This document shows, piece by piece, positions 6,401 through 34,285 of a stretch of DNA of 64,000 nt. The DNA lies in NCBI RefSeq assembly GCF_000374185.1, contig NZ_KB910518.1, forward strand, positions 1,172,546-1,236,545, in the 5' to 3' direction. Origin of the DNA: Paenibacillus sp. HW567. Its GTDB lineage: Bacteria > Bacillota > Bacilli > Paenibacillales > Paenibacillaceae. Each line of letters begins with the position of its first letter. Within the stretch, counting starts at the first letter, position 1. The notes under the pieces are model-generated. The model ran no database searches. It worked only from the letters and a program-made list of their open reading frames with translations, and had not been told where the DNA came from. The translations under genes and the position numbers were made by a program.

Positions 6401-7050
6401 AAATTCGCGGACACCGCGTCCAACTGGCTGAAATCAGGAGTGCAATCATGGATTTTCCAGTTATCAGCAACTGTGCGATGGTTTGGGAACAAGAGCGGTT
6501 GATTGCCTATGTTGTGCCTGCGGAGCAGCCTTTTACTCCTGCAAAACTGCAAGTATTTCTAAGGGATAAGCTGCCTGATTATATGCTGCCGTATTCTTAT
6601 GATGAGGTGGAGCGGATTCCGCTTACGCCGAACGGGAAAATTGATTACGTGCTGCTGAAAGAAACCGCCGCCCGCACTGCCTATGCCCCAAGGCTTGAAA
6701 AGCGTACTCCCGAAACGAAACTGCAACAGGAAATATCCGTTATATGGAAACGCCTCTTGGGAAAGAAGGATGTGGGAATAATGGACCACTTTTTTGAAAT
6801 CGGGGGTCATTCTCTTTTGCTGATTCAGGTCCACCAGCAATTAGAGTCTCTGCTGGACAGAGCGATTCCCATAGTTGCATTGTTCCGTTATCCGACCATT
6901 GCCGACCTGGCGGCTTTTCTTGAAGATACGCCAACAACAAGCGGTATAGCGGCAGCAATTACTGAGACAACTGTGGAGCAACGTCGAGATAAGCGCTTTA
7001 GTGCTATAAAAGCTCAAAAAGCCAAACGAAAGGGGACAACGGAGCTATGA
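487..7050 (+). CDS. two-module non-ribosomal peptide synthetase (C-A-PCP-C-A-PCP)
   Basis: This 2187-residue cytoplasmic synthetase adds two residues to the chain from the upstream PKS. Domains in order: condensation (HHIITDAWS near residue 160), adenylation 1 (FTSGSTGEPKA near 644, FDAWVFE near 690), carrier 1 (GGHSLL near 1042), condensation 2 (HHFIMDGWS near 1232), adenylation 2 (FTSGTTALPKA near 1715, GHDPLLRDIF near 1759), carrier 2 (GGHSLL near 2106). There is no epimerase, methyltransferase or thioesterase. Placing the ten pocket positions by eye on GrsA gives D-A-F-V-I-A-A-V-W-K for domain 1, a hydrophobic pocket, and D-P-R-H-F-S-G-Q-L-K for domain 2, which resembles the Lys2 aminoadipate pocket (D-P-R-H-F start). 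Both assignments are inferences. Two ATGs stand in tandem at 487 and 490 after a GGTAGGGTG site. The stop overlaps the next start. Confidence 0.95.
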   Translation: MMNQKTELAGLPRTQKEELLRLLLQRRSELQSSRISYGEKALWLLHSKDPYNFAYHLHGAWDIAKPVSVERLMSAAKRLYSMHESLRATYLEEDGEIQRKIAPAGEPDFSVHYLDVWNDEAKACFSSHLREPFSLNEGPLIRFRLYVPQGSTVRLLISMHHIITDAWSLTIMLRHFFALYLEGLPDVEIFSLPPGKDQAGYPAFVKWQEQYLASNRAERDRIYWENEFSAPLPFPPLLHQCPDEDDREKSSNHFRFSESLSADVVSLSRSGGVTVNMFLLAAFTAMLHCCSGRKEVVVGTFTTGRNDPSFENTLGYFVNTLALRLSVDESMSFIDLLDAVKYKLLSSMEHQDYPFPLVVQGMQKREDSLDAVSLIQTAFVMERAQDRSLQSPLFTGGENDEIQWGALRMNPVPLPVLGTPFEFTLMMEETECFIGGTVAYQPDRYTSSFVQSWISSFIRFVEQIVSHPSEKLEDVWEQQEQANGFSTQAGKPDEHICLHHLLEYQAHCRPQHTALASPSGSLTYSELDQHVNQLANYLRKMGVQRGDFVGASLGRSPDMVIAAFATLKVGAAYVPIDPGYPMQRKSYMANHMGIAFVITTSDMEELDGTNIQHVCLDRLAEEIAAENMVFSGEPAINDDLAYVIFTSGSTGEPKAVLVEHRGIWNMAQAQRQHFGLQESSRIMQFASPSFDAWVFEVVMAFRSGGSLRIPSADALLPGPEMLLWMEKEGISHIVMPPSVLNLLPYRELESLEVIISAGEACTSELVRRWAPGRRFYNAYGPSEATVWATVKECFSHEPLISIGEPISNVDLHILNERMEQLPPGEFGELYISGIGIARGYHNDSRRTAEKFGWYVEIDSRAADNNGETMLRRQRIYQTGDLVKQQADGGLVFVGRKDDQIKIHGLRVNLGEIEHHLAACEGVLGSTVLAVPDFHSSDSRLVAFILLRDPNASDEERIRRALEHWLPPSLVPSRFIMLKQLPLTPNGKVDRKALLALIDDWDGRSNLPSYSGLSLTEDLLLGIWRDLLQRPDIACTDSFFEAGGHSLLAVRLSSRIRSVFGVNIPVNRIFERPILQEMATEIEALTTCGLMEDADRIEIVKPEDKIRLPLTNVQQKIWFMQALDEGGNAYLMPGVLSFRGMLDVPALELAINALIGRHDSLRMHISGRENGIPYISVGEPQEYPLKINTCAEEEADQNIQAECKIPIKLTDERLFRYRLWKAGERYYLTLVVHHFIMDGWSMSLLLNELGELYDAYVERREARLFPLALGYADYAVWERKRKDSERYRRQLSYWEGIFKDSIPSTELPADFPRQPALTYPGNSVKLLLPLELREGLHRLTRCNGCTLFMTLLAIFDVLLYRLSGQSDIVVGAPAAGRTIKPLEPIVGLFVNTLLLRNRITQEMSFTDLLQSVRETAIGAFAHQDVSLEEWVEEVNPNRDTGLSSLFRVMFNMLNMPPIHLRMKGVEAEIIELKDYASKYELTFYAQEVDEGIMIEAVYAANLFTQERVSEMLAQYERLCVQVLAEPEGEIKHFSLLTPESAGRLPDLGRPLLQGSTECLPVHILFSSVAAQYSDKGAIVNPDGTGLTYGQTDDQSNWLAKRLMSKINWERPVIAILGERSASLVVSILAVQKAGGIFMLLDPRDPLERSIAMLHAASAKGLLIARGKRDFSTDKTMALAREVQFVLEYGQEQGDKAENNEFSPIFPLSTDPAYILFTSGTTALPKAVLCSHEPLARFVTWYLNTFQVNSGDRFSMFSGIGHDPLLRDIFVPLCAGAAICIPDERYMVFPDYVNEWMRSNRISVTHLTPAMAMVIAGGSRRTAELIQQTNWRYAFFSGDTLLASHVDGIRRIAPNVRCFNGYGATETPQLMSIFQVGEDGNDRIAIGSGREGVELLIMGPEGEMRGIGEAGEIVVRSPYLALGYLNDQRDEENPFCLNPAALLPGDRLYKTGDMGRYNPDGTIEFLGRRAGIVKIRGHRVQLAEIRSAIMDFPVISNCAMVWEQERLIAYVVPAEQPFTPAKLQVFLRDKLPDYMLPYSYDEVERIPLTPNGKIDYVLLKETAARTAYAPRLEKRTPETKLQQEISVIWKRLLGKKDVGIMDHFFEIGGHSLLLIQVHQQLESLLDRAIPIVALFRYPTIADLAAFLEDTPTTSGIAAAITETTVEQRRDKRFSAIKAQKAKRKGTTEL

Positions 7051-10025
7051 GTGGTGAAGAATTGGAAAATAGCATTGCCATCATAGGCATGAGTGCAAGG
7101 TTTCCCGGTGCGGAGAATATAAGCGAATACTGGAACAATATCCGCGAAGGGCGGGAATCCTCAACCCAACTGACGGATGAAATGCTACGGCAGGTTGGCG
7201 TAGATGAAAAGCGGATTGCTGATCCTCATTATGTAAAAACTGCTTTTGGGATCAAAGAGGTCGACTTGTTTGATTATATTTTTTTCGACATGAACAAACG
7301 GGAAGCAGATATGCTTGACCCCCAACATCGTTTTTTGCTGATGTGCGCATACGAAGCACTGGAAGACGGAGGATATGTGCCGGATTGTTATAAGGGTATC
7401 ATCAGTCTTTTTGCTGGTTGCGGGTTCAACAGCTATTTGTTCCATGAAATTATGGCGCAGCAGAAGGAAGTTGCCGAAGAGGATCTCCAGCTTCTTTTGC
7501 AAACAAACAGCAGCGATTATTTATGTACGCGTATTTCTTACAAGCTTAATCTTCGAGGCACGAGCGTCAATATTCAAAGCGCCTGCTCGACCTCCATGGT
7601 TGCGGTTCATCAGGCTTGCCAAAATTTGTTGATGTATCAATCGGATATGGCTTTGGCAGGGGGAGTTTCACTCCGGCTGCCCGCCGGCGAAGGCTACCTT
7701 TATCAGGAGGGAGGTATCTTCTCGCCGGACGGTCATTGCCGGGCTTTTGACGCGGACGCTAAAGGGACGGTATTTGGCAGCGGCGCCGGCGTAGTTCTAC
7801 TTAAGAGAATGGAAGACGCTTTGACTGACCAAGATCATATTTATGCCGTTATACGGGGTAGCGCGGTTAACAATGACGGCTCTGCCAAGGTTGGATATAC
7901 GGCTCCAAGCGTTCAGGGACAACGGGATGTTATCGCCGAGGCCGTCATGATGGCGGGCATTAACCCTAATACGATAGGTTACGTGGAAGCCCATGGCACT
8001 GGTACCCCGCTTGGCGATCCAATCGAAATAGCCGCTTTGGAAGAGGCATTTGGAGCAATGGAAAGCCAAAGTTGCGCAATCGGTTCGGTGAAGACCAACA
8101 TCGGCCATCTAAACGCCGCATCAGGCATTGCCGGATTAATTAAGACGGTCTGTATGTTGAAGTATGGGGAAATACCGCCAAGCTTGAACTTTCATGTTCC
8201 AAATCCAGCAATTGATTTCGCGGTGAGTCCGTTCTATGTAAATACGAAATTAAGGAAATGGGAACGAAGAGCGACGCCCCGCCGAGCAGGTGTCAGCTCA
8301 TTCGGAATCGGCGGGACGAATGCACATGTCATTTTAGAGGAAGCTCCGGCTCCAAAACGTGATCAGCTTAAATTCGCTTTGGAGCATCCGCAGGCCGGGC
8401 AGGAACAAGTTATCCTTGTTTCGGCGCGAACTTCCGCTGCGTCTGAACAACTGGCTCATTCATTGGAGTGTTTTTTCAGTGAACACCCTGAGGCCGATAA
8501 GGCCGCTGCCGCTTTCACCCTTCAGACTGGCCGGGCCCAATTCGCTTATCGGCGGGCTGCTATGTTTGATCAGCAGGGTCGATTGCAGCAGGTCGGCGAG
8601 CGAAAGGCTTCTGTACCCGGACCAGGCGTTATTTTTATGTTTCCCGGACAAGGCAGCCAATACCCAGGGCTGGCCGCCGGTTTATATTCTACTGTTCCTT
8701 CATTTCGTAAATATATGGAAGAATGTTTAAGCTTGCTTGGCGGGCAGGACAGAGAGATTTTTAAAATGCTTTTGATGGGAAAGGATGAGAAGGGTTCCGC
8801 CGCTGAAGAGGTAAAACGGACGGCAGTTGCGCAGCCGTTAATTTTTATGGTGGAATATGCGCTAGCCAGAAGTTTAATGGAATGGGGCGTCAAGCCGGTT
8901 GCGATGATAGGGCACAGCTTGGGAGAATATACGGCCGCTTGTCTGTCGGGAGCGATCAGCCTGCAAGAAGCGCTAACATTGATCATGGAGCGGGGCGCTT
9001 TGATGGAACAGACCGCCGCAGGCGGCATGATGGCAGTATTTTCTTCATGGGAGGAAGTTAAACCGCTTCTTGATGAAGAATTGTCCATATCCGCAGTAAA
9101 CTCCGGCAACTCCTGTACTGTGGCGGGCAAAAAGGAAGCTTTGCTCAGTCTGGCCGCCCGCTTGAAGGGGCTTGAAATAGAACACCGGTTCTTAGACGTG
9201 AACCATGGCTTTCACAGTGGGCTGATGGATACTATCCTGGAACGGTTTGGCGAGGCCATTGAGCGCTGCTCCTGGAAAACTCACGGTATTCCTTTCATCT
9301 CTAATGTCACCGGCGATTTCATTACGGACAAGCAGGTTCAAGACACAGATTACTGGCTGGGACATTCGCGGAATCCGGTGCAATTTGCGAAAGGTGTGGA
9401 TACTTTGCTCAGAGGTGAGCCTTGTCTATGGCTTGAGGTCGGCCCCGGCAAGGCATTGGGACAGTTTGTCCTGCAGCAATCGGACGGTTCTCATCCGTCT
9501 GGGGTGTACAACCTGCTCCGGCGCCGGGATGAGGCAAGATCGGATCGCGAAGTGCTGCTGAAAGGACTCGCTCAATGCTGGCTGGCCGGCAGCGACATCC
9601 GCTGGGAACAACTGCATGAGCCGGAAACGGGGAGAATCTCCCTTCCCACCTATCCGTTCGAAGGAAAAAGATGCTGGTTCAGCGATTCAGACGACGTTAA
9701 GGAAGAAGCCAATGACAAGTCTGATTGGAGCGTTGAACTCCGCGCTCACCTTTCGACCGCATATGTCGCTCCGGAAAACGGCATTCAGGAAAAGCTGGTT
9801 CAAATTTGGCAGCAGGTTCTTGGAACACAGCCAATAGGGATTCGGGATGATTTTTTTGAATTGGGAGGACATTCCCTTCTGGCAACCCAGCTCATTTCCA
9901 GATTGCGTAATTTGTTTCCAAACATCCAACTTCAGTTTGACCAGTTGTTTGTGTATACCACCATCCAGGAAATCGCGGAGCAAATCGAATTGCAAATGAT
10001 AGAATTTATAGAGAATCAAGCTTGA
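7047..10025 (+). CDS. type I polyketide synthase module (KS-AT-ACP)
   Basis: This 992-residue module adds one two-carbon unit. The ketosynthase has its catalytic Cys in SACSTS (near residue 180) and both His motifs, HGTGTP near 315 and NIGHLNAASG near 352. The acyltransferase has GHSLGEY (near 622) and HGFHS (near 721); the FHS form is typical of malonyl-CoA selectivity, with Gly replacing the usual Ala. The carrier ends the protein (ELGGHSLL near 943) and looks like a peptidyl carrier, as is common at PKS-NRPS junctions. No ketoreductase, dehydratase or enoylreductase is present, so the beta-keto group should survive. The start codon overlaps the stop of the upstream NRPS (ATGA), indicating translational coupling and a PCP-to-KS hand-over. 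Confidence 0.96.
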   Translation: MSGEELENSIAIIGMSARFPGAENISEYWNNIREGRESSTQLTDEMLRQVGVDEKRIADPHYVKTAFGIKEVDLFDYIFFDMNKREADMLDPQHRFLLMCAYEALEDGGYVPDCYKGIISLFAGCGFNSYLFHEIMAQQKEVAEEDLQLLLQTNSSDYLCTRISYKLNLRGTSVNIQSACSTSMVAVHQACQNLLMYQSDMALAGGVSLRLPAGEGYLYQEGGIFSPDGHCRAFDADAKGTVFGSGAGVVLLKRMEDALTDQDHIYAVIRGSAVNNDGSAKVGYTAPSVQGQRDVIAEAVMMAGINPNTIGYVEAHGTGTPLGDPIEIAALEEAFGAMESQSCAIGSVKTNIGHLNAASGIAGLIKTVCMLKYGEIPPSLNFHVPNPAIDFAVSPFYVNTKLRKWERRATPRRAGVSSFGIGGTNAHVILEEAPAPKRDQLKFALEHPQAGQEQVILVSARTSAASEQLAHSLECFFSEHPEADKAAAAFTLQTGRAQFAYRRAAMFDQQGRLQQVGERKASVPGPGVIFMFPGQGSQYPGLAAGLYSTVPSFRKYMEECLSLLGGQDREIFKMLLMGKDEKGSAAEEVKRTAVAQPLIFMVEYALARSLMEWGVKPVAMIGHSLGEYTAACLSGAISLQEALTLIMERGALMEQTAAGGMMAVFSSWEEVKPLLDEELSISAVNSGNSCTVAGKKEALLSLAARLKGLEIEHRFLDVNHGFHSGLMDTILERFGEAIERCSWKTHGIPFISNVTGDFITDKQVQDTDYWLGHSRNPVQFAKGVDTLLRGEPCLWLEVGPGKALGQFVLQQSDGSHPSGVYNLLRRRDEARSDREVLLKGLAQCWLAGSDIRWEQLHEPETGRISLPTYPFEGKRCWFSDSDDVKEEANDKSDWSVELRAHLSTAYVAPENGIQEKLVQIWQQVLGTQPIGIRDDFFELGGHSLLATQLISRLRNLFPNIQLQFDQLFVYTTIQEIAEQIELQMIEFIENQA

Positions 10026-10047
10026 CAATAGTTATGGGGGAGTGAAG

Positions 10048-13000
10048 ATGAAAAATAATAACGAGTTGGAAAAACGGCGCTCGAAATTATCTGCTGAACA
10101 GCGCCGCCTGCTGGAGCAATGGAAGTTATCGGAGGCGGTTCCCGAATATACCATAACCTCCGGTAAGGGCAAATATGCAGGAACGGTTTCCCCGGCTCAA
10201 ATGAGACTTTGGTTTATGGACCAACTGCTTGAGGATAAGGCTGCCTATAACATGTACGCAGCAGTTCGTTTGAGAGGAGACATACAGACCGATACGATTG
10301 AATCGGCATTTCGGCATGTTGCGAATCGGCACGAGAATTTGCGCTCTAATTTTCTTGAGCAAGAAGGCCGCCCCATTGTTATTCTAGATATTCATAATCC
10401 GGTACATACGCGGCTTTATGATGATGTAAGTCCGCATGATATTCGCACCGCAGAGGAAGAGGCGCAGCGGCTGCTGCAATCCTTTATCTCTCAACCCTTT
10501 GACCTGAGCGGGGAACCTTTATTCCGAACCATGCTGATCCGCCTTGCCCCTAAAGAACACATTTTAGCGGTATGCATGCACCACATTATATCGGATGGCT
10601 GGTCGATGGGGATTTTGCTTAAAGAATGGACTACCGTCTATAATGCCCTGCTCCAAAATTCCGAGCCCAATTTACCGGAAATTCCGGTAAGCTATGCCGA
10701 CTTTGCCCATTGGCAGATAGACAAGCTGGAGTCGGGTGGATGGAGCGGCCATCTGCATTACTGGAAAACCCTTCTCTCCGGTGCTAGCAGCGCGGCTCTT
10801 ACCCCTGACAACAGACATCCGGAACGTATGGAGCACAATGGCAATGAGGTTCGGTTTGTCTTGCCGGGAGAGCTCTATAGACGGCTTGCCGAGTTCAGTG
10901 TGGGTTCAGGTCTTACTTTGTTTACTGTCCTGTTTTCTATATTCAATGTATTACTATACCGTTATACAAAAGAAACTTCAATTGTAACCGGAACGCCGAT
11001 TGCCAATCGGAATTATACCGAAATTGAAGAGATTATCGGGTATTTTGTCAATTTGCTGCCGCTACGGGTTGAGCTCGATCCGCAGATGAGTTTCCGGGAG
11101 CTTGCGGGTCGTGTGATGCAATCTTCTCAGGAAGCTTACAGCCATCAAGACTTTCCATTTGATCGGGTGATTGAGGAGCTTCAGCCGGAGCGAACCGACC
11201 AGCTTATTCCGCTTATTCGCAATCTGTTCGTATTCCAGAACCAAATGGTTCCTCCTTTGCGGCTGAACGGTATAGATACGGAATACTTGGAGTTATATAA
11301 CCATACATCAAAATCTGATCTGCTGCTGTCCATGATAGTCCGGGATGGCAGCATAGACGCTAGGTTGGAGTATGACGGACGGTTGTTTGTACCGCAGACT
11401 ATGCAGAGTTTTGCCAAACATTTTGTGCGCCTGGCTGAATCGGCAATGGAGCAACCGGATCTGCCTATTTGCCATCTTGAACTCCTGGATAAGGCCGAAC
11501 AACAGCCACAGTTCTCTCACCTAGTTGTTCAGAATACAGAGCATTTTGTTATACACCAAAAATTTGAGCAAATTGCCGCCAAATTCAGCAACCGGATTGC
11601 ACTTCAATGGGATTCAGAAGCCTGGACATATGGACAATTGGAGCAAAGGGCTAACCAAATAGCCCGTTACATCAATGGATTGGGAGTACGTCCCGGGGAA
11701 TTTGTCGGCCTGTTTATGGAACGTTCGCCTCAAGTTGTAGCTTCCATTTTAGGCATTCTCAAAGCGGGTTGCGCCTACGTTCCAATGGACCCGGCTTATC
11801 CCGAAGAGAGAATTCGCTTTATGCTGAACGACGCAGGTTGCCGTGTTATTTTGGTGGATAACCTGACCGAAGCCCGCTTGACGGCCAATTCAGATTGTTT
11901 GATTGTGAATCTGTCTTCGGCGGAAGACGCCATTACGCGATTGCCGGTCGCCTCCGTGCGGTATGACAGCAAAAGTACAGATTTGGTATATATGATCTAC
12001 ACTTCGGGATCCACCGGGGTTCCTAAAGGTGTGCTGATTGATCACGGTAATGTAAGCCGCTTATTTACTTCGACAAACGGACAATTCCATTTTGATGAAA
12101 ATGACGTGTGGTCACTGTTTCATTCCTATGCATTTGATTTTTCCGTCTGGGAAATATGGGGAGCGTTACTTCATGGAGGAAAGCTAGTTATCGTTCCAGG
12201 CCATGTAACCCGTTCCTTCGAGCTGTTCTATGAACTTATAGTCAAGGAAAAAATAACCGTGCTAAATCAAACTCCTTCCGCGTTCAAGCAGCTGTCCCAT
12301 ACGGAGGAACTGCTATGTTCGGATGACGGCGGGTCCGGTTTAAATCACCTCCGTTATGTTATTTTTGGCGGCGAAGCGCTAGAGCTGTCCTCTCTGGAAA
12401 CATGGTTGAAGCGTCATGGCGATGAATGTCCGAGGTTGATCAATATGTACGGCATTACGGAAATTACGGTTCATGCAACTTATCGCCGTATCCGAATAGA
12501 GGATCTGCAAGGCGCGTATGGTCATGTTATCGGAAATCCCTTGCGGGATATGCGAGCCTATGTGCTTGACGAATGGATGCAGATGGTTCCTGTTGGTGTA
12601 GCGGGAGAATTGTACATCGGAGGACCGGGGGTGTCGCGCGGTTACTGGAACCGTGAAGCGCTGAATCAAGGGAAGTTTATCCAAGATCCCTTTATAGCAG
12701 GTTCTATGCCACAGGAGAATTTCTGCAGGCTGTACCGTTCCGGAGATTTGGCTCGTTGGACACACGAAAATGAACTGGAATACGTGGGACGAATAGACAA
12801 TCAGGTTAAGGTCCGCGGATTCCGCATTGAGCTTGGTGAAGTGGAGACGGCTATACAGCAGAATGAAAATGTATCGCAAAATGTCGCTGTTGTGGAACAC
12901 AATCAATTTGGAGATCCGAGAATCGTGTCGTATTTCATTCCTTACGAGTACAAGTTATTGGAACTTCGCCGGGAATTGCAGAAGAAAGAACAAGTGACCA

Positions 13001-15801
13001 ACCGTTGGGAGCTGGTTTTTGACGGATATTATCAAGAGGAAAATTTTCATGAGGATAAGTCGTTTCATATTGCCGGCTGGAACGATTCCTACTCAGGAGA
13101 AGCCATTCCCGAAGTGGAAATGGAAGAATGGACAAAGGAGACGGTGGCAAGAATCAGGAGCTATCGCCCGAGACGCATTCTTGAGGTCGGATGCGGAACC
13201 GGATTGTTGCTGTTCAGGCTCGCCGCAGACTGTGAATCGTACACAGCCATTGATTTTTCGGTGCAGGCCATCGAATACCTCCGCGCTCATTTGTCGCTGC
13301 TTGGTCCAAATGCAAGCAAGGTAAAACTCTATAAAGCCAATGCCCATGACCTTGACGAACTGAATTTGGACGATATTGATATGGTCATTATCAATTCAGT
13401 TGCCCAGTACTTTCCCGATGTACAGTATTTGAATCTGGTTCTGGAAAAAGCGGCGAAAAGGCTCGGGAAAAGAGGTTGCATTTTCCTTGGGGATGTATGC
13501 GGGATGATGTTTGGGGAGATTCACCAATCGTCCGTTGCCATGAGCAAAGCAGAGCTGGACATGACCGTGGCCGACTTCAAACGCCTGGTACGGCATAGAT
13601 TGGACAGGCATAACGAACTGATGCTGGACGTATCGTATTTTACTGGACTTAGCAATACCGTTGGGGGGCTTGAATATGCTGAGTTGTTGTATAAGAGAGG
13701 CAAATTTCATCATGAAATGAACAAATATCGTTTCGATGCTGTGCTTCATAAAGGGGCTAAACCCGTGTGGGAGATTGCCGGAGAATACGACTGGAGGCAG
13801 TTGCGGGAAAAGGGAACGGATATAGTAGGGCTGTGCTTGCAGCATGAAAAGGAATGTTTTGTGATTCGAAACTTTCCTAATTCACGAATTATGACGGAAT
13901 GGAATTTTGTGCAGTGGTACAATACCGCCTATCCGCAGACCGCTATATCCGCTTATCCGGTTAAAGAGCGGCTGGAGGCGACTGGCCTTCATCAGACGCA
14001 GCTCGCCTGGGAATCGGATACTCACCTTATGGAGTGGGTGATTACGGATACGGCATCCAGAGGCTGTATTGACGCTGTCTTTTATCCGGTCAGTGGAGAG
14101 AAGCTGCTTCCTTGTTTGACACTGATCGCCGAGGCTGCCTGCGTGTTGCCCGGGGCTAACCTTCCGCTTCGGGCCAAACTGGAGGCCACAATTGAGCAGA
14201 ATATCAAAGCTTCGTTAAAGGGCCTGATTCCGGAATATATGATTCCTTCCGAATTTGTGGCTCTGGAGAGCTTTCCGTTGACTGTTAACGGGAAGATTGA
14301 CCGGAGCCAGCTTCGGTTGTTCAAACCGTACAAGGCCAAAGTTACCTCATTTGTCGAGGCTACCCGCCAAGAAGGTACAGAGATGGAGGAAATGGTCTGC
14401 AGATTATGGATGGATTTACTGGATACGGGATATGTCGGCCTTGATGAATCTTTTTTTGAAGCTGGAGGCCATTCCTTGCTTGTTGTTCAATTGATGTTTC
14501 AGATTAAAAAAGCTTTCAAAGTCCATATTCCTTTGCTGCAGCTTATGCAGGAGCCGACCGTCAGAGGGATTGCGGCTGTGATTGAGCGTGCGCTTTCGGA
14601 GCAGCCTGCAACCGTGTTTGATTTCTCCGCTGATGTTGCCCTGTCTCCAGACATTACCGCAGGCGGACTTCCTTCTGCAGCCCGCATAACAGGCTCCGCC
14701 GTTCTTCTGACGGGAGCAACGGGATTTTTTGGAGCTTTTCTGCTTCGCGAGCTATTGGAGAAAGGAGACAAGCCTGTCTATTGTCTCGTCCGGTCCTCAG
14801 GCAAGAGAGAAGGCTTACAACGTATTGTTGCCGCATTGAATCGGTATGGATGCTGGAAGGACGAGTGGGAAGAACGCATTATCGCCATCAAGGGTGACTT
14901 GGCTCTTCCCGGACTAGGGCTTGATTCTGCGGTTTATAAGGAGCTGAGCATTGCGGTCACTGAAATCTATCATAATGGCGCCGTAGTCAATTTTGCCCAG
15001 CCCTACGCATCCCTTGCTGCCGCTAATGTCGGAGGTTGTGAAGAGGTGCTTAGATTAGCTGCAACCGAAACTATAAAACCGGTTCATTTCATTTCGACGT
15101 TGTATGTTTTTTCCTTGGAAGATATAAAAAGTAAAAAAATCATTCTCGAGAACGATGTGCCGGTCTACTTACAGAGCTTACAATTGGGATATACGCAAAG
15201 CAAATGGGCGGCTGAACAACTGATGAGGGAAGCTCGTCTACGAGGCATCCCGGTCAATGTATTCCGGCTCGGGCGCATCGCCGGTGATAGCCTAACAGGG
15301 GCTTGCCAGGAGAATGACTTTTTTTGGAGATCCGTCCGCTTATGTCTTCATCTCGGCATATTTCCTGACATAGATTTTGCTTTCAATCTGATCCCTGCCG
15401 ATTTTGCGGCACAAGCAGTGATTCATCTGGCGAAGCAGGGAATGGAGAACCAGACGTATCACCTGTTAAGCCGGAATGATTATACCTTTTTTCAAGTTCT
15501 GGATGTGTTGAATAGCCGAGGCTACAGTTTTGAACTTTTACCTTGGGAACAGTGGAAATGCCGCGTGGAAGAACAAATTGAACACGGTGGCGGCTATGAG
15601 GACGCATCGGTGATGCCTTTTATTGGCGAAATGGCGGCAACGTCGGAATATCCGCAGTTCGATGCTGCCTTTACGAAATCGGCAATGGACCTGTTGTCGT
15701 TGCCCTCTGCGTTCGTTACAAATGAACTGCTGGCTTTATATATCGACTATTTTATCAACCGCGGTTTCTTCATGCCGCTGGTAAAATCTGATATGGGGTG
15801 A
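10048..15801 (+). CDS. terminal NRPS: C-A-(N-methyltransferase)-PCP-thioester reductase
   Basis: Domains of this 1917-residue protein are: condensation (HHIISDGWS near residue 178), adenylation (YTSGSTGVPKG near 651, FDFSVWE near 697), a SAM methyltransferase inserted in the adenylation domain after ELGEVE (ILEVGCGTG near 1045), carrier (GGHSLL near 1474), and an NAD(P)H thioester reductase (TGATGFFG near 1555, YTQSK near 1716). The ten-residue pocket reads D-F-W-N-I-G-M-V-H-K, the classical threonine code. The insertion point is the usual one for N-methyltransferases, so the last residue should be N-methyl-threonine. The chain should leave reductively as an aldehyde or alcohol, since no thioesterase domain is fused. 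A GTG at 10042 is possible, but ATG 10048 sits 6 bases after GGGGGA and is preferred. Confidence 0.96.
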   Translation: MKNNNELEKRRSKLSAEQRRLLEQWKLSEAVPEYTITSGKGKYAGTVSPAQMRLWFMDQLLEDKAAYNMYAAVRLRGDIQTDTIESAFRHVANRHENLRSNFLEQEGRPIVILDIHNPVHTRLYDDVSPHDIRTAEEEAQRLLQSFISQPFDLSGEPLFRTMLIRLAPKEHILAVCMHHIISDGWSMGILLKEWTTVYNALLQNSEPNLPEIPVSYADFAHWQIDKLESGGWSGHLHYWKTLLSGASSAALTPDNRHPERMEHNGNEVRFVLPGELYRRLAEFSVGSGLTLFTVLFSIFNVLLYRYTKETSIVTGTPIANRNYTEIEEIIGYFVNLLPLRVELDPQMSFRELAGRVMQSSQEAYSHQDFPFDRVIEELQPERTDQLIPLIRNLFVFQNQMVPPLRLNGIDTEYLELYNHTSKSDLLLSMIVRDGSIDARLEYDGRLFVPQTMQSFAKHFVRLAESAMEQPDLPICHLELLDKAEQQPQFSHLVVQNTEHFVIHQKFEQIAAKFSNRIALQWDSEAWTYGQLEQRANQIARYINGLGVRPGEFVGLFMERSPQVVASILGILKAGCAYVPMDPAYPEERIRFMLNDAGCRVILVDNLTEARLTANSDCLIVNLSSAEDAITRLPVASVRYDSKSTDLVYMIYTSGSTGVPKGVLIDHGNVSRLFTSTNGQFHFDENDVWSLFHSYAFDFSVWEIWGALLHGGKLVIVPGHVTRSFELFYELIVKEKITVLNQTPSAFKQLSHTEELLCSDDGGSGLNHLRYVIFGGEALELSSLETWLKRHGDECPRLINMYGITEITVHATYRRIRIEDLQGAYGHVIGNPLRDMRAYVLDEWMQMVPVGVAGELYIGGPGVSRGYWNREALNQGKFIQDPFIAGSMPQENFCRLYRSGDLARWTHENELEYVGRIDNQVKVRGFRIELGEVETAIQQNENVSQNVAVVEHNQFGDPRIVSYFIPYEYKLLELRRELQKKEQVTNRWELVFDGYYQEENFHEDKSFHIAGWNDSYSGEAIPEVEMEEWTKETVARIRSYRPRRILEVGCGTGLLLFRLAADCESYTAIDFSVQAIEYLRAHLSLLGPNASKVKLYKANAHDLDELNLDDIDMVIINSVAQYFPDVQYLNLVLEKAAKRLGKRGCIFLGDVCGMMFGEIHQSSVAMSKAELDMTVADFKRLVRHRLDRHNELMLDVSYFTGLSNTVGGLEYAELLYKRGKFHHEMNKYRFDAVLHKGAKPVWEIAGEYDWRQLREKGTDIVGLCLQHEKECFVIRNFPNSRIMTEWNFVQWYNTAYPQTAISAYPVKERLEATGLHQTQLAWESDTHLMEWVITDTASRGCIDAVFYPVSGEKLLPCLTLIAEAACVLPGANLPLRAKLEATIEQNIKASLKGLIPEYMIPSEFVALESFPLTVNGKIDRSQLRLFKPYKAKVTSFVEATRQEGTEMEEMVCRLWMDLLDTGYVGLDESFFEAGGHSLLVVQLMFQIKKAFKVHIPLLQLMQEPTVRGIAAVIERALSEQPATVFDFSADVALSPDITAGGLPSAARITGSAVLLTGATGFFGAFLLRELLEKGDKPVYCLVRSSGKREGLQRIVAALNRYGCWKDEWEERIIAIKGDLALPGLGLDSAVYKELSIAVTEIYHNGAVVNFAQPYASLAAANVGGCEEVLRLAATETIKPVHFISTLYVFSLEDIKSKKIILENDVPVYLQSLQLGYTQSKWAAEQLMREARLRGIPVNVFRLGRIAGDSLTGACQENDFFWRSVRLCLHLGIFPDIDFAFNLIPADFAAQAVIHLAKQGMENQTYHLLSRNDYTFFQVLDVLNSRGYSFELLPWEQWKCRVEEQIEHGGGYEDASVMPFIGEMAATSEYPQFDAAFTKSAMDLLSLPSAFVTNELLALYIDYFINRGFFMPLVKSDMG

Positions 15802-20514: not shown

Positions 20515-20541
20515 TTATCCGAGTTAAGGAAGTGAATGGTT

Positions 20542-22920
20542 ATGGGAAATGTGCTGAAGTGGGTATGGCGGGATGTGCTTAAAAACCGGCTGCAGACGAT
20601 TTTGATTATAATCCTTATTTTGGCTGCGGCTTTTATCTATTTTTTTATACGTTATGCATCGGATGGGATCGCCGCAGAATACAACAGCTTTATTGAAGAA
20701 CAGCATCAGGAGCAGTTTGAATTTACATTAAACCTGGCGGGCGCCTTAACCAAGGATCAGCAATGGGAGCTGTTGTCAGGAACTGGAGTCTCCCGGCAAG
20801 AGTTCGATTTGATGGGATTTAACAATATCCGCAAGAAATACCGGCTTGCTTTTGAGGCTGAGGAAAGTAAGGAAGCGGAGCGGTTGAGCAAGGAGTATCA
20901 CTTCACATATGAAAGGAACTCTTACAAGGAAATCCGGCAAGACGGTACAACCTTCCGATTGATTGCAAGTCCGAACTCGCAAAGCATCAATCAGGTGTAT
21001 ATGAGCGAAGGCCGTTTGCCTGGAAAATCCGGTGAAATTGCAGTCCCTGTCAATGCAGAGGAGCTGTTGTCCTCCCATATAGGCGGGACGATCAGCTTAG
21101 GCGGGAATAATTATACCGTTGTGGGCCATTTTATTGAACCGGGGCATTTAACACGAGTGTCTTCCGGGTCGGAGCAGCTTGTTTCCATTTTATCGTGGCC
21201 TGATGATTATAAACGTTCGGCATCTTCGGAGCAATATCTGTATACCGGCAGATTTTTGCCGATGGAGGGTTTATCGCTTTCCGATGAAACAGCTCGAATG
21301 AATGAAGATACTGGTTTTGACACCATCCTGCAGGTCAATGATAACCCGAATGCGTCTGAAATCATACAGGGTGTTACTTCGAATCAAGGCTTGTCCTATA
21401 CTTTTTTGGTTGTGCTGGGGGCCTTGTGCGGGGGGATCTATTACGTTTTTCTGGACCGCCGCTTGAACGCACTGAGACAATCCTGGGGAGTGCTTCAAGC
21501 CATGGGCTATTCACCGGGTCTTATCATTCGGGCATTTTTGCTGGTGCATACGAGCTTGTGCGCAGCAGGGATTCTCGCCGGCTGGGGACTGGCTTACATG
21601 GGAGCCGATCTGCTGATCGCGCAGTTTCAATCCCAGTATACATTGCCGTCATTTCCCAAAAGCGTTTCAACCGCTTCGCTGCTGATCGGGATAATCTTTA
21701 TTCTTGCCGCATTTGTCCTGCCTTTATATTTGAAGCTGCGCCTGTTTGCACGTCAAACATCGTTATCCATGCTGCAGCCGACATTGCAATCTTCTCCTAA
21801 GAAGGTTATGCAAAAGCTTGCCTCGTGGACGGAAAAATTTCCTTTCTTGTCCCGGATTAAATGGCGGATGGCGTTTCGGAGCTTTCGGGTAATTGTGCTG
21901 CTTGTCATAACCATTATGCTGTCCTCCATCTTGTTCCTGCTCGGCTTCTCGCTGAATCAGTCAAGTTCGGATTCTGTTCAGCGGCAGTTCTCCGGAATTC
22001 ATTACAGCTATGACTTGCGTTTTGATCAGGCCGGAATTGAAGAACAACGAGGAGATTCTGACAGCTACTACCGCCTCGGAAACAAACATTTTACTTGGGC
22101 AGATTCCGGCAGCGGCCGACAGGGCTTCCAAGGTGAACTGCTATCCTGGGACGGCGATGCCGGCTGGCTCACACTGTTGTCGAAGGACGGTCAATCTACT
22201 AACAGCGCTTTGGATCAGGGGGCGGTGGTCCATTATTCTAAAGCGAAATTATGGGGGCTGCGGGTAGGAACGGCAATTACAGTTCGGGTAGACAACTCAG
22301 TGCTGCAGGTTCCTGTCAGTGCTTTTAGCTATAATGGAAATCCGGACACAGTGTATTTGAAAAAAGACAAGCTGACGGCAATGCTCGGTATATCTCCACA
22401 TATTTATAATGGCAGATTCAGCAATACTTCAATTTCTGAAGGGGACAAAGGGGCAGGAATTGAAGTCATTTCCGTAAAGCAAATTCACGATGAAAAGTTA
22501 AGTCAAGCCTCGTCCTCGCAATTAAGCGCTGTTTTGAATCAGGTCATTGGCGTGCTTATTGCTATTCTGATGATAATGTTGATCGGTTTAATCGTTACCG
22601 AGGAAAGCAAACGCAGTATGGTTATCTTGCAGCGGATGGGGTATGAGCCTGCGGAGATCAAGAATATGCTGATCAATGTCTATGTGCCTATATTGTTGGT
22701 TGCTTATATAATCACACTGCCTTTGTCCTGGGAGGTCGTTACATCTATACTTCGAAGCGTATCCATCAGCACTAATGATTACATCCCTTTTATATATAAT
22801 ATTTGGATTCTCATAGGTGTTATTGCTCTAATCATTTTGATCTATTATGTGGTCATAACCATTTCTTCAAATTATGTGTTCAAGAAATCCTTTGGCAAAT
22901 CTAAAGCGTTGAAGTATTAA
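20542..22920 (+). CDS. ABC transporter permease, FtsX/MacB-like
   Basis: This 792-residue membrane protein has one N-terminal membrane segment (residues about 12-32), a large extracytoplasmic domain of roughly 230 residues, three segments (about 280-405), another segment near 450, a second extracytoplasmic domain, and three C-terminal segments. This is the duplicated FtsX layout of eight segments with two outside domains found in permeases of bacitracin- or lantibiotic-type exporters. It should pair with the ATPase encoded 27 bases upstream. ATG 20536 is possible, but AAGGAAG (20526-20532) fits ATG 20542 better (9 bases). The first 32 bases of this gene, with 8 bases of leader, recur downstream at 23213. 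Last gene of the cluster visible here. Confidence 0.9.
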   Translation: MGNVLKWVWRDVLKNRLQTILIIILILAAAFIYFFIRYASDGIAAEYNSFIEEQHQEQFEFTLNLAGALTKDQQWELLSGTGVSRQEFDLMGFNNIRKKYRLAFEAEESKEAERLSKEYHFTYERNSYKEIRQDGTTFRLIASPNSQSINQVYMSEGRLPGKSGEIAVPVNAEELLSSHIGGTISLGGNNYTVVGHFIEPGHLTRVSSGSEQLVSILSWPDDYKRSASSEQYLYTGRFLPMEGLSLSDETARMNEDTGFDTILQVNDNPNASEIIQGVTSNQGLSYTFLVVLGALCGGIYYVFLDRRLNALRQSWGVLQAMGYSPGLIIRAFLLVHTSLCAAGILAGWGLAYMGADLLIAQFQSQYTLPSFPKSVSTASLLIGIIFILAAFVLPLYLKLRLFARQTSLSMLQPTLQSSPKKVMQKLASWTEKFPFLSRIKWRMAFRSFRVIVLLVITIMLSSILFLLGFSLNQSSSDSVQRQFSGIHYSYDLRFDQAGIEEQRGDSDSYYRLGNKHFTWADSGSGRQGFQGELLSWDGDAGWLTLLSKDGQSTNSALDQGAVVHYSKAKLWGLRVGTAITVRVDNSVLQVPVSAFSYNGNPDTVYLKKDKLTAMLGISPHIYNGRFSNTSISEGDKGAGIEVISVKQIHDEKLSQASSSQLSAVLNQVIGVLIAILMIMLIGLIVTEESKRSMVILQRMGYEPAEIKNMLINVYVPILLVAYIITLPLSWEVVTSILRSVSISTNDYIPFIYNIWILIGVIALIILIYYVVITISSNYVFKKSFGKSKALKY

Positions 22921-22954
22921 ATGTGTATTCAATTATTTAGTTGCGTTCTGTAAT

Positions 22955-23003
22955 TCTCCTTTTCAGTGCTTGTCTAACCACAAGTTCTGGAGAGGAGTTT
23001 TTT
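22955..23003 (+). terminator. possible terminator of the biosynthetic operon
   Basis: A two-part hairpin (TCTCC at 22955 with GGAGA at 22989; CTTGT at 22969 with ACAAG at 22980) is followed by six T residues at 22998. The stem is interrupted by internal loops, so it is a weak candidate. Confidence 0.3.
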
Positions 23004-23212
23004 ATTATGGTTAGAATTAAACAAATTTAAGAACAACAATGTGCGACTTTTCTTCAAGAGATATAGCAATTCATTTGAAATGATGGGCTATCTTACATAT
23101 AACCTGTTTGAATATCTAGGATAAGTAGAACAAGAGAGGCTTGATTCCAATCCTTTAAATCACTAAGAAACGTGAAGATAAAAGAAGCGTTGTTAATATA
23201 GATCAAGATCCC

Positions 23213-23252
23213 GAATGGTTATGGGAAATGTGCTGAAGTGGGTTTGGCGGGA
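23213..23252 (+). repeat. 40-base direct copy of the start of the ABC permease gene
   Basis: Bases 23213-23252 match 20534-20573, the leader tail and first codons of the FtsX-like permease, with a single difference (A at 20565, T at 23244). The match stops abruptly on both sides. The copy has an ATG but no continuing frame, so it is a remnant rather than a gene. Confidence 0.9.
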
Positions 23253-23404
23253 CTCTAAGGCGCGGAGATGCCTCGGGTTCAATCCCGCGGAATAATCTTA
23301 CAAGGAGTGTAAGGCAACTGTAATCTAGATCAATAGTATCAGCCTATTTGCTCCAGTATACTAAGCCTATCCATCGGTGGGATTAGTTTGTAGGGGGAGT
23401 TGGC

Positions 23405-24910
23405 GTGAGGCTTTTTGAAATGCTGTTATTCTTTTCAAGTGCTTGTCTGTTGGGAATCCTGTTCATTTACAATCAACGTATCCGAAGATCAGCTTTGCTC
23501 CTGGCAAGCGGAGCCGGCTTCATTTTTTTAGTAATACATTTTCTTGTCGAAGGATACAGGGTTCAACTTTTATTTCTATATGGATTTACGCTCCTGATGC
23601 TTATGCGTTCGCTTATAGACGTTTTCAGAACGCAGAAAGCCGTTCGGACTGTCTCGCGAATCCGTAGGGTGCTGGGTCGCCTTTTTATCGTGATTGGGCT
23701 AATCGCAACGGCGTGCTTCCACTATGTGTTTCCCGTATTCGGCCTTCCGGCACCAACCGGTGAATTTAAGGTAGGAACGCAAACGTTTCATTTCGTGGAT
23801 ACACATAGGGAAGAGATTTTCGGCAAAGCCAGAGATGGCAAGAGGGAATTGATGGTTCAGGTATGGTATCCGGCTCAAGCTGGCACTGGCAAGCACGCTC
23901 CCTTTATTCCCGATACCCGGATTTTAAGTTATATGGGCGCGGACTATGGCCTTCCCGGTTTTACTTTTGGGCATCTGAAGTACGTATCCAGCCATGCTTA
24001 TTCGGGGGCCGAAGTCTCTTCGGCACAGCCTTCATACCCGCTGATTCTTGCGAATCCCGGCTTCGGCTCTTCCAGGTTCCTCCACACCACGCAAGCTGAG
24101 AATCTCGCGAGTCACGGATATATCGTGGCAGTGATCGACCACACCTACAATACATTCGCAACCGAGTTTCCGGACGGTCGAATCACGACCAGCAACACCA
24201 ATGACTTATTCTCGCCTGACCATGATTACCGGACGGAAAGCGGAAATCGCGACCAGCTCGGAAAAATTCTAACGGGCGATGTGTCGTTTGTGCTGGACCA
24301 ATTCGGGCTTATCCAATCGGGGCAGATTCCAAGTCATCTACAGGGGAGCGTTGATCTCGGTCATGTCGGGGTGTTCGGTCATTCCATCGGCGGAGCGACG
24401 GCCTATGACGCTTCTTATGATCCGCGAATTGCGGTTGGGATAGACTTGGATGGAGCGCTTTATCGACTGCGTGACAGAGAAGCTCTGCGAAAGCCGTTTT
24501 TGTTCATCAACTCGGAAAGCGAATTCGAAAAAATAAAAATGGTGAGGGATAACCGGGTCTACACGGATGCAGAGCTGAAACGTATGGGTTCAACAAGAGA
24601 GTGGACGGATCAAGTAAGGGAAGATAAAAAGCTGGAGCTTGAACAGATGCGCCAAACGGTCAAAGCAGGGGGGCAAGTCCTTTATATCGAAAATACGGAG
24701 CATTTGAATTTTTCGGACGTACAGTTCATTTCTCCCATTTTCAAAATGCTGGGGATTACAGGAAAGATTGCGCCCGAAAGAGCGAGCTCCGTTATCAATG
24801 CCTATATGCTGGATTTCTTCGATAAGTATCTGAAAAATCAAGGCGGAATCTTAATGAAAGGACCGGATAGCCGCTTTCCGGAGGTGAAGTTCGTAAACTT
24901 GATGATGTGA
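23405..24910 (+). CDS. membrane-anchored alpha/beta hydrolase, PAF-acetylhydrolase-like
   Basis: This 501-residue protein starts at GTG 23405 after GTAGGGGGA. Four hydrophobic segments fill roughly the first 120 residues. Behind them is an alpha/beta hydrolase with the nucleophile serine in GHSIGG (residue 327), preceded by a GFGSSR oxyanion-type loop and an IDHTYN stretch, and with a C-terminal His in NTEHLNF. This layout fits the platelet-activating-factor acetylhydrolase (isoform II) family, lipase-like enzymes that hydrolyse short acyl esters. The catalytic domain probably faces outward or the membrane surface. It is separated from the biosynthetic operon by the scar, so a link to the cluster is uncertain. 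Confidence 0.82.
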   Translation: MRLFEMLLFFSSACLLGILFIYNQRIRRSALLLASGAGFIFLVIHFLVEGYRVQLLFLYGFTLLMLMRSLIDVFRTQKAVRTVSRIRRVLGRLFIVIGLIATACFHYVFPVFGLPAPTGEFKVGTQTFHFVDTHREEIFGKARDGKRELMVQVWYPAQAGTGKHAPFIPDTRILSYMGADYGLPGFTFGHLKYVSSHAYSGAEVSSAQPSYPLILANPGFGSSRFLHTTQAENLASHGYIVAVIDHTYNTFATEFPDGRITTSNTNDLFSPDHDYRTESGNRDQLGKILTGDVSFVLDQFGLIQSGQIPSHLQGSVDLGHVGVFGHSIGGATAYDASYDPRIAVGIDLDGALYRLRDREALRKPFLFINSESEFEKIKMVRDNRVYTDAELKRMGSTREWTDQVREDKKLELEQMRQTVKAGGQVLYIENTEHLNFSDVQFISPIFKMLGITGKIAPERASSVINAYMLDFFDKYLKNQGGILMKGPDSRFPEVKFVNLMM

Positions 24911-27924: not shown

Positions 27925-30348
27925 GTGAAACTGAAGCATGTGCACTCTGGTTCGGATGGCGTGAGACTGGAGACTGCAGAAGGCATTATGCATATCGTCT
28001 TTTGCACACCGGGAATTGTCAGAATTCGTTATACCCTGGATTCGGAGCTAAGCGGGAAGCAGAGTCTTGTGGTGGTGAGCCGCCCAGAGGCAGAGGATGT
28101 TCCATGGACGGTTGCGGATCATCCCGGACACCTGGAAATTTCCACAGAGCTCCTGACTATTCAAGTAGACAAGTTAACCTGTGCATTCAGTTATCGGGAT
28201 GCGGCTGGCGAGCTGCTGACAAAGGAACCGTCCAGAGGCGGCAAAACGCTGGAGCGAACCGAGGTATACCATACGGTCTTCGATGCTGCGGCGGATAAGG
28301 TTGAAGCTGCTCAGGGGGCGGATGGCCTGCGTGCAAGCGTGGAAGGGATCAACCGCAAGCTCGACAGATTAGCCTATCATACGAAGCTGGAATTCGAATG
28401 GCAGGAGGGCGAGGCGCTCTATGGACTGGGCTCACATGAAGAGGGAATGATGAATCTTCGCGGCAATCATCAATATTTGTACCAGCAAAATATGAAAGCG
28501 GTTGTTCCGGTCCTTGTATCTACACGCGGTTACGGGATTTTGGTAGACTCGTATTCGTACATGACCTTCCATGATGATGCGTTTGGTTCATATCTCTGGA
28601 CAGACGTGGATGAGGAAATGGATTATTATGTTATTTACGGCCCGGAGCCTGATCAGATTATAGCTGGAATCCGGTACCTGACGGGAGAAGCGCCAATGCT
28701 TCCTAAGTGGTCTTACGGGTATGTACAATCCAAGGAACGATACATTTCACAAGAGGAATTGATTGCCACAGTACAAGAGCATCGCGACCGCTCGCTTCCC
28801 CTCGATTGCATTGTTCTGGACTGGCAATCGTGGCCGGGGAATTTGTGGGGACAAAAGACGTTTGATGCCGAACGTTTCCCGGACCCCTCAGAAATGATGC
28901 GCAGCTTGCATGCAATGAATGCCAAGCTTATGGTATCCATATGGCCGATTATGGGAGCCGGCGGTGATAACCACCAGGAGATGAGCGGGCACGGCTTCTT
29001 GCTTGGCAATCAGTCCACATATGACGCCTTCCGCAAGGAAGCGCGCGAGCTATACTGGAAGCAGGCCGGGACCGGACTGTTCTCCCACGGGGTTGACGCC
29101 TGGTGGTGCGATTGCACCGAGCCGTTTGAGGCTGACTGGAAGGGAGCGGTGAAGCCGGAACCGGAGCAGCGCATGCGGATTAACACGGCAGAATCCAAGC
29201 GTTATCTCGATCCGGGGCTTATTAATGCCTACTCGCTGCTCCATTCCAAGGGCATCTATGAGGGCCAGCGTTCAGCGACTTCAGACAAACGGGTAGTAAA
29301 TCTGACCCGGTCGGCTTTTGCAGGGCAGCACCGTTATGGCACGATCACATGGTCAGGAGATATATCCGCCAATTGGGAGACACTTACAAAGCAGATTGCG
29401 GACGGACTTAACTTCTGCTTAACGGGTTCTCCTTACTGGACACTGGATATCGGCGCTTTTTTCGTGAGCGGGCATAAGGAGCAATGGTTCTGGAACGGGG
29501 ATTATGATGAAGGAGTTGCTGATTTCGGGTATCGCGAGCTGTATGTCCGCTGGTTCCAGGTAGGGGCCTTTCTGCCAATGTTCCGTTCCCATGGAACAGA
29601 TACACCAAGGGAGGTGTGGCGGTTCGGTGAAGAGGGCGGGCTGATGTATGATACACTGGTCAAGTATCTGAAGCTACGGTACAGGCTGATGCCCTATATC
29701 TATTCTTTGGCCGGGGCCGTCACACATCATAGCTATACGATGCTTCGCGCACTGGCCTTCGATTACCGTAATGATCCGCTCGTCCATAATATTGACAATC
29801 AATTCATGTTCGGCCCGGCCTTTCTGGTTGCGCCAGTTACAACTGCAATGTATTATGGTCCCGGCTCCCGTGAGCTTCAAGGTATCGACAAGCTGCGCAG
29901 CGTCTACCTGCCTGCCGGTGAATGGTACGATTACTGGAGCGATGAACGGCTTGAGGGCGGCTTGACGATTGAGGCCAAAGCCGACCTGGAGACACTTCCT
30001 CTCTTTGTCCGTGCCGGTTCGATTATTCCGTTAGGCCCGGATATCCAATATGCGGATGAACAGCCGGAAGGGGTGATTGGGCTGAAGGTGTATGCCGGCA
30101 AGGATGCTACATTTACCCTGTATGAAGATGAAGGGGATAACTATAATTATGAGAGCGGTTCGTACTCCACAATAGAGCTGCGCTGGTGCGAAGAAGAACG
30201 TATCTTGACGATAGGAAAACGGAGCGGGTGTTACACTGGTATGCAGGCGGTCAGATCCTTTACTGTGGAGATCGCCGGTTATGCAGGCCGGTCCATGGTT
30301 TCTTATCAGGGTGACTCTGTAGCCGTAGATTGCCGCCGAATGCCATGA
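27925..30348 (+). CDS. GH31 family alpha-glycosidase (probable alpha-xylosidase)
   Basis: This 807-residue enzyme has no signal peptide, so it acts in the cytoplasm. It has the N-terminal beta-sandwich, a (beta/alpha)8 barrel with the nucleophile Asp396 in WWCDCTEP and the acid/base Asp479 in TWSGDIS, and a C-terminal beta domain. GH31 enzymes remove alpha-linked glucose, xylose or galactose by a retaining mechanism. The xylan-type neighbourhood favours alpha-xylosidase, but alpha-glucosidase cannot be excluded. The start is GTG 27925 after GGCAGGGA. It follows the GH43 gene in the same operon and is closed by the terminator at 30419. Confidence 0.88.
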   Translation: MKLKHVHSGSDGVRLETAEGIMHIVFCTPGIVRIRYTLDSELSGKQSLVVVSRPEAEDVPWTVADHPGHLEISTELLTIQVDKLTCAFSYRDAAGELLTKEPSRGGKTLERTEVYHTVFDAAADKVEAAQGADGLRASVEGINRKLDRLAYHTKLEFEWQEGEALYGLGSHEEGMMNLRGNHQYLYQQNMKAVVPVLVSTRGYGILVDSYSYMTFHDDAFGSYLWTDVDEEMDYYVIYGPEPDQIIAGIRYLTGEAPMLPKWSYGYVQSKERYISQEELIATVQEHRDRSLPLDCIVLDWQSWPGNLWGQKTFDAERFPDPSEMMRSLHAMNAKLMVSIWPIMGAGGDNHQEMSGHGFLLGNQSTYDAFRKEARELYWKQAGTGLFSHGVDAWWCDCTEPFEADWKGAVKPEPEQRMRINTAESKRYLDPGLINAYSLLHSKGIYEGQRSATSDKRVVNLTRSAFAGQHRYGTITWSGDISANWETLTKQIADGLNFCLTGSPYWTLDIGAFFVSGHKEQWFWNGDYDEGVADFGYRELYVRWFQVGAFLPMFRSHGTDTPREVWRFGEEGGLMYDTLVKYLKLRYRLMPYIYSLAGAVTHHSYTMLRALAFDYRNDPLVHNIDNQFMFGPAFLVAPVTTAMYYGPGSRELQGIDKLRSVYLPAGEWYDYWSDERLEGGLTIEAKADLETLPLFVRAGSIIPLGPDIQYADEQPEGVIGLKVYAGKDATFTLYEDEGDNYNYESGSYSTIELRWCEEERILTIGKRSGCYTGMQAVRSFTVEIAGYAGRSMVSYQGDSVAVDCRRMP

Positions 30349-33373: not shown

Positions 33374-34285
33374 ATGAAAGCTGTGACGAAAAGCTCAGAC
33401 CGCTTTGAGCCGATCATATTTCATACGATAAATACGATATTTATGCTCTTTGTGGTTGCCATCACGCTCTATCCATTTCTCCACACGCTGGCTGTTTCAT
33501 TAAATGACGGAAGCGACACTCTTGCTGGCGGAATTTATTTCTGGCCCCGTGCCTGGACCTTGGAGAATTATAGAGCCGTCTTTATTTCAGGAACGATCTA
33601 CCATGCCGCTTTTATCTCCGTGTCCCGTACGGTGCTCTCGACGGTGTTCGGCGTGTTTCTGACCACCATGCTGGCGTATACACTGGCGCAGCCGCAATAC
33701 ATTTTCCGTAAAAAAATCAGTATGCTGTTCATCCTGACCATGTATTTCAATGCCGGCCTGATTCCGAACTACTTCCTTATTAAAAATCTGGGTCTGCTTC
33801 ATAGCTTCATGGTCTATATCCTGCCAAGCCTGGTCAGCGCGTTCAACCTGATTATCATCCGGACGTATATCCGCTCCCTTCCAGGCAGCCTTACGGAATC
33901 GGCGAAGATCGACGGGGCGGGGGATTTCAAGATCTTCTGGAAAATCATCTTCCCGCTGTGTACTCCCGTACTGGCAACCGTGGCTTTGTTCATCGCCGTA
34001 GGCGCATGGAACTCCTGGTTTGACACGTTCCTGTATGCTTCCTCAGATATCAAGCTTAGCACGCTGCAATATGAAATGATGAAGCTGCTCGGGTCCACCA
34101 TGAGCACGAACAACGATCCTTCGTTGCTGGCGGGCAATCAGAACAATCAGGTGCAGGCAATGGTGACACCGGCTTCCATCCGTGCAGCCATCACCATTGT
34201 TACCGCCGTGCCAATTTTGTTCGTGTACCCTTTCTTGCAGAAATATTTCGTGGTAGGATTGAATTTAGGAAGTGTTAAAGAATAA
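33374..34285 (+). CDS. ABC sugar importer permease (LplC/YtcP-like)
   Basis: This 303-residue membrane protein has six segments. The EAA loop appears as ESAKIDGAGDFKIFWKIIFP near residue 175. The C-terminus (GLNLGSVKE) is the typical end of this permease subgroup. It is the second half of the CUT1 channel with the preceding gene, 13 bases upstream, and has a GAGGAGG site. Last gene of the importer operon, with a terminator-like hairpin behind it. Confidence 0.94.
   Translation: MKAVTKSSDRFEPIIFHTINTIFMLFVVAITLYPFLHTLAVSLNDGSDTLAGGIYFWPRAWTLENYRAVFISGTIYHAAFISVSRTVLSTVFGVFLTTMLAYTLAQPQYIFRKKISMLFILTMYFNAGLIPNYFLIKNLGLLHSFMVYILPSLVSAFNLIIIRTYIRSLPGSLTESAKIDGAGDFKIFWKIIFPLCTPVLATVALFIAVGAWNSWFDTFLYASSDIKLSTLQYEMMKLLGSTMSTNNDPSLLAGNQNNQVQAMVTPASIRAAITIVTAVPILFVYPFLQKYFVVGLNLGSVKE

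Follow-up and report, generated by a model that had tools for sequence, protein, structure and literature searches.

A 40-base copy of an ABC permease start in a probable decayed accessory-DNA edge beside an NRPS/PKS cluster of Paenibacillus sp. HW567

Genomic islands associated with tRNA genes and carrying tyrosine recombinases are a known kind of system, in which 3' fragments of a tRNA gene beside an integrase are the usual sign of recombination within that gene. Templated (filler) insertions, for their part, occur at end-joining junctions. PMC2884548 presents illegitimate recombination as the source of much of the small-scale diversity of bacterial genomes, and lists B. subtilis as one of the few prokaryotes that have dedicated end joining.

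Here we analyze a 484-base scar (22921-23404) in a stretch of 64,000 nucleotides of the Paenibacillus sp. HW567 genome (hereafter the window; G000:C1:1172546-1236545), from a genome assembled as a single 6.84 Mb contig with an estimated completeness of 100. In our favored reading, to which we assign a probability of roughly 0.6, the scar is the decayed and rearranged right edge of accessory DNA at tRNA-Leu(UAA), and the 40-base copy that it contains is filler left by illegitimate joining.

Gene setting and composition of the scar

Upstream of the scar lies an NRPS/PKS cluster, with matches to condensation and AMP-binding domains at 487-7050 and 10042-15801 and to ketosynthase and acyltransferase domains at 7047-10025. 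The cluster continues with a methyltransferase, two MFS proteins, a thioesterase, an ABC ATPase, and an FtsX-type ABC permease (20536-22920). On the 3' side of the scar, a PAF-acetylhydrolase-II-like lipase gene (23405-24910, + strand) is followed by glycoside hydrolases of families 43 and 31. Further along the window, we observed a 21-base inverted repeat (95%) at 29129-29149 and 33871-33891, with 4.7 kb between its arms.

The DNA of the ATPase-permease pair was matched in 40 of 100 same-genus genomes, the own one included (E 1e-10, best three candidates scored per genome), and each match listed outside the own genome is a short stretch inside the ATPase gene only. At E 1e-40, the permease was found in 20 of 394 genomes of the family, again including the own one. 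Among the sampled genomes, its nearest counterparts (40-42% identical) occur in seven genomes of one other genus of the family, and not in the own genus. A search of genome contigs with a peptide pattern gave 13 matching stretches, none of which encodes a close relative of the permease. This kinship outside the genus may be a hint of horizontal transfer of the cluster.

The scar itself is a mosaic. The preliminary description had called it gene-free and degenerate; there is indeed no ORF of at least 100 aa between 22920 and 23405, while the second term needs refining, as most of the left half is a recognizable integrase pseudogene. At the right end lies the lipase promoter region (23297-23404, + strand), whose similarity with relatives starts at 23291-23297. 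Using 23205-23330 as a query, 5 of 100 genomes match at E 0.01; apart from the own genome, these are four relatives, in each of which the match begins no earlier than 23291 or 23294. Further upstream of the lipase, G028 and G034 have about 65 bases in common before they diverge, G006 and G002 are alike, and G097 and G098 are unlike these (all by eye). The lipase unit thus sits in varying surroundings, so that the scar is a joint with a variable segment on either side, and not one of an island with a fixed backbone. An operator-like palindrome, CTTACA-N5-TGTAAG (window 23297-23313), precedes the lipase gene and is kept with a spacer of 4-5 bases in G028, G034, G006, G002, and G098.

Integrase relics, tRNA-Leu(UAA), and the leader hairpin

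Three blocks of alignment to a tyrosine recombinase (integrase) gene of relatives make up 22951-23209. The first block (22951-23039, + strand) comprises a leader hairpin (22956-22997, then a T run) and the first integrase codons, and is 78-96% identical to the corresponding places in relatives. The two further blocks (23039-23209, + strand) display 72-77% identity to L003/L081, L004/L080, and L073. Relative to L081, the pseudogene has two internal deletions of about 92 and 65 bases, and its 3' end is missing; it reads as hairpin and T run, start codon, seven-codon frame, and stop. The match at the protein level has an E value of 3.6e-4.

A second relic of the same integrase lies at G000:C1:1163608-1163918, on the + strand like the scar relic, with stops inside and 83% identity to the integrase of a relative (G001) over 284 bases. 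The tyrosine recombinase belonging to an element end is present as a pseudogene only, both in the scar and at C1:1163608. A search of the own genome gave no intact copy, its other two matches being recombinases of 32 and 28% identity. The genome's own tRNA-Leu(UAA) gene, at C1:1159006, is located 4.5 kb before the left relic and is not adjacent to it; relic and tRNA gene are 32 and 36 kb upstream of the scar, on the other side of the cluster. The 6 kb before this tRNA gene are collinear with G001, in which the same integrase begins about 0.2 kb behind an intact tRNA-Leu(UAA). The G001 integrase gene is itself split, its two pieces carrying the Phage_int_SAM_5 and Phage_integrase domains. In G012, the integrase follows a 59-base 3' fragment identical to the tRNA-Leu of the own genome. 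Upstream of the window, L073:10969-11097 contains a 42-codon frame for a small Cys-containing peptide, the last codons of which overlap the left relic (from 11069). Within L073, no repeats with a length of 24 bases or more were detected.

The integrase relics on both sides, the tRNA-Leu(UAA) gene upstream, and the end of the lipase-side similarity at 23291-23297 bear out the earlier suggestion of a past rearrangement at the cluster edge, which we regard as well supported. The mobile-element debris found in the scar is a tyrosine recombinase. No IS fragment was recognized in the searches made with the scar: across 60 genomes, it matched only the leader and integrase, the lipase promoter, and its own source, and it had no match in plasmid and phage records. 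An intact island would carry a 3' piece of tRNA-Leu at its end; a search of the scar for such a piece gave none, and hence no direct repeat of the tRNA 3' part was seen at this end. For this reason, we speak of an edge relic and not of an island proper. No empty site was seen, with one genome per species and distant nearest relatives.

The leader of the scar was found at 17 or more places in 11 of 59 relatives (best ten candidates scored per genome), several of them in the same genome in some cases. An intact tRNA-Leu(UAA) directly precedes it at two of 17 such loci (G001 and G035), and a 3' fragment of this tRNA, starting from base 28-34, at four. Since 11 of the 17 have neither the tRNA nor its fragment within the fetched stretch, and integrase sequence is recognizable at only two, the leader by itself is no marker of an island.

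Region 22945-23020 folds at -24.3 kcal/mol (z -4.58), and a terminator scan did not flag the hairpin. In the alignment, 90.1% of cells are paired, compared to at most 63.2% when the pairing is slid, and the pairing is thus kept. There is no excess of covariation (143 of 500 shuffles reach the score), and the one pair changed on both sides is equaled in 234 of 500 shuffles. In relatives (L080, L081, L151-L165), the 42-base hairpin with its T run stands before integrases, behind stop codons, or before genes resembling a MarR/MATE pair (by eye); at several of the leader-only loci, it lies 6-36 bases behind a stop codon. The hairpin is perhaps a travelling terminator and, as the leader-only places in relatives show, it also travels or survives alone.

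The copied permease start and its flanks

The 40-base repeat with one mismatch given in the preliminary description was recovered by repeat search, genome search, and alignment. The copy (23213-23252, + strand) matches its source (20534-20573, + strand) at 39 of 40 positions, ungapped and in the same orientation, with a spacing of 2,679 bases. The source comprises the last two bases before the ATG and the first codons of the permease gene. Against all 6.84 Mb of the genome, the scar gave only two matches at E 0.001, namely itself and this source. Because the latter has an E value of 6e-12, a chance origin is excluded; an estimate with uniform bases gives about 1e-15. Across the 64 kb window, the repeat search reported no further direct-repeat family with a length of 28 bases or more. 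The copy ends abruptly: immediately outside the 40 bases, on either side, its flanking sequence departs from that of the source. The sole mismatch, A20565/T23244, falls on a third codon position in the permease (GTA/GTT, synonymous, by reading the sequence), and such a single difference says little.

The copy was not seen in 99 same-genus relatives (at most the eight best candidates scored per genome). Its retention under another gene order, which would speak against a rearrangement scar, was not seen among them. An exact 24-base pattern of the copy had no match in viral contigs, nor did an exact 27-base pattern in genome contigs. Restriction to the own genome is also what would be seen if an assembly artefact had pasted 40 bases at the junction. 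However, the assembly is a single 6.84 Mb contig of estimated completeness 100, and the one-base difference from the source is unexpected of a simple assembly duplicate, making this explanation quite improbable.

The N-terminus of the permease aligns with that of relatives (MRNVLKFVRRDMVKNQLQ in L140, MGNVLKWVWRDVLKNRLQ here). Because it is conserved in them, the permease start is the original, and the direction of copying was from the permease to the scar. Among seven permease loci of the other genus, none has its own first 40 bases repeated within the fetched stretch. The preliminary description had taken the copy as a sign of insertion of the cluster. This part of the claim does not stand: since the template lies inside the cluster, the cluster was already present, and the copy was made when or after it was in place. 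On the question of cluster insertion, the integrase relics are the better evidence.

The two direct repeats frame the whole body of the permease gene, and this arrangement allows two further readings. In the first, site-specific recombination would have integrated 20534-23212 as an element with the 40 bases as its att core, the repeats enclosing the permease body together with the integrase relic. Yet the permease aligns with its relatives across the repeat boundary from the N-terminus, so it was not assembled there, and in relatives the piece beside the integrase is tRNA-Leu 3' sequence; we give this reading hardly any credence. In the second, which we consider far-fetched, the copy would be a built-in switch for shutting down export of the cluster's product: recombination or slippage between the repeats would delete the permease in one step and leave a 26-codon stub.

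Filler from illegitimate joining also has to be weighed against a remnant of duplication. The common orientation, the distance of 2,679 bases, the start almost at the gene start, and the single mismatch would suit a copy that is the last remnant of a larger, mostly deleted tandem duplication of the permease region. If so, both ends of the duplicate must have been lost, as the integrase relic lies left of the copy. No further trace of it was detected: even at E 1, a search with the scar gave no match within the window beyond the scar itself and the 40 bases, and none in the 20 kb upstream beyond the integrase relic (in two pieces) and one 14-base stretch. We therefore consider such a duplication unlikely.

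Within the copy begins a 26-codon frame (23215-23295), which stays open past the copy junction. A functional copy could yield an RNA that acts as a decoy for the permease translation start, or encode a short peptide from this frame. The copy does span the start-codon region, the mismatch is synonymous, and a promoter-like match (9/12) lies upstream on the + strand at 22988-23017. Against this, five promoter-like matches compare with a mean of 2.7 in shuffles (sd 1.5), 23200-23300 folds no better than shuffles (z -0.21), no Shine-Dalgarno-like sequence precedes the ATG of the copy (by eye), and the copy was not seen in any of the 99 relatives. A role of this kind is thus barely plausible. A known RNA at the copy was rejected on the same fold z score and on three Rfam matches per scan, all far below gathering scores. 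Nothing found indicates a function, and the copy is probably not a working part.

The copy is set apart from the integrase relic by three bases (CCC, 23210-23212, + strand, by alignment) and from the lipase side by 44 bases (23253-23296, + strand). In the own genome, nothing else matched the query 23240-23310 significantly (best E 0.79). The 44 bases had no match in the 99 relatives or, queried as 23246-23300, in plasmid and phage records, and an exact 19-base pattern of them gave no match in viral contigs. When 23261-23290 was compared with 56 distinct tRNAs of the own genome, the best score (35) was obtained with the 3' half of tRNA-Asp. In a first run, none of 500 shuffles and none of 500 random 45-mers of the window reached this score; larger runs gave 8 such cases among 5000 shuffles and 32 among 19999 random 45-mers, some of the 32 being pieces of the real tRNA-Leu gene. 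Rfam covariance models and ARAGORN detected no tRNA in the 44-base region. A derivation of 23261-23290 from the tRNA-Asp 3' half is thus suggestive only.

Two other candidates for these bases were rejected. Taken as a whole tRNA-Asp, the copy and the 44 bases score 41 over the full length versus 35 for the 3' part alone; with the copied 40 bases shuffled, 153 of 2000 trials reached that score, so that extending the tRNA into the copy brings no significant gain. As diverged native pre-lipase sequence, the 44 bases score 24 against 14 upstream regions, a value that 397 of 1000 shuffles attain as well.

Proposed joining at a decaying edge, and known systems

Illegitimate joining with a templated patch at a decaying edge is the most economical account. 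Accessory DNA would have accumulated downstream of tRNA-Leu(UAA), where a tRNA-Leu-associated tyrosine recombinase would have left its wrecks in the scar and on the far side of the cluster. Between the integrase relic and the lipase side, a break or a stalled fork would have undergone repair, with DNA synthesis copying 40 bases from the permease start 2.7 kb off and pasting them in the same orientation. The mosaic, both relics, the tie to tRNA-Leu in some of the relatives, and the copy with its direction are observed directly; we infer the arrival of the cluster through a tRNA-Leu integrase element, as well as the repair mechanism and the order of events. The joint has the hallmarks of filler: unrelated segments meet there, and between them lies a nearly exact, sharply bounded copy of a template close by. 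The host encodes Ku, and an ATP-dependent DNA ligase domain lies 8 kb from it; such components are usual for end joining, and their presence does not prove that the insert is their work. Two features count against the filler reading and are unexplained by it: the start of the copy two bases before a start codon, which for a random patch would be a coincidence, and the 3 and 44 bases flanking the copy.

The value of the locus is that the joint can be read: a cluster edge built from accessory DNA near tRNA-Leu, flanking integrase wrecks, and a patch traceable to its template. Events of this kind are already known, and readable joints of this sort help to order the steps of cluster acquisition.

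As in tRNA-associated islands, the integrase stands beside tRNA-Leu(UAA) or its 3' fragment in some relatives, with accessory genes around. Unlike in such islands, only integrase wrecks are present here, the tRNA gene is 4.5 kb from the nearer wreck, and the scar has no tRNA fragment. The patch resembles templated filler insertions in being short, near-exact, taken from a nearby locus, and abruptly ended; it differs in being known from sequence alone and in starting almost at a start codon. It also resembles the small variable segments described in PMC2884548, which are short and unexplained by transposition or site-specific recombination. Those segments, as presented there, come from comparing strains of E. 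coli, S. aureus, and S. pyogenes, whereas here a single genome is concerned and the template is identified.
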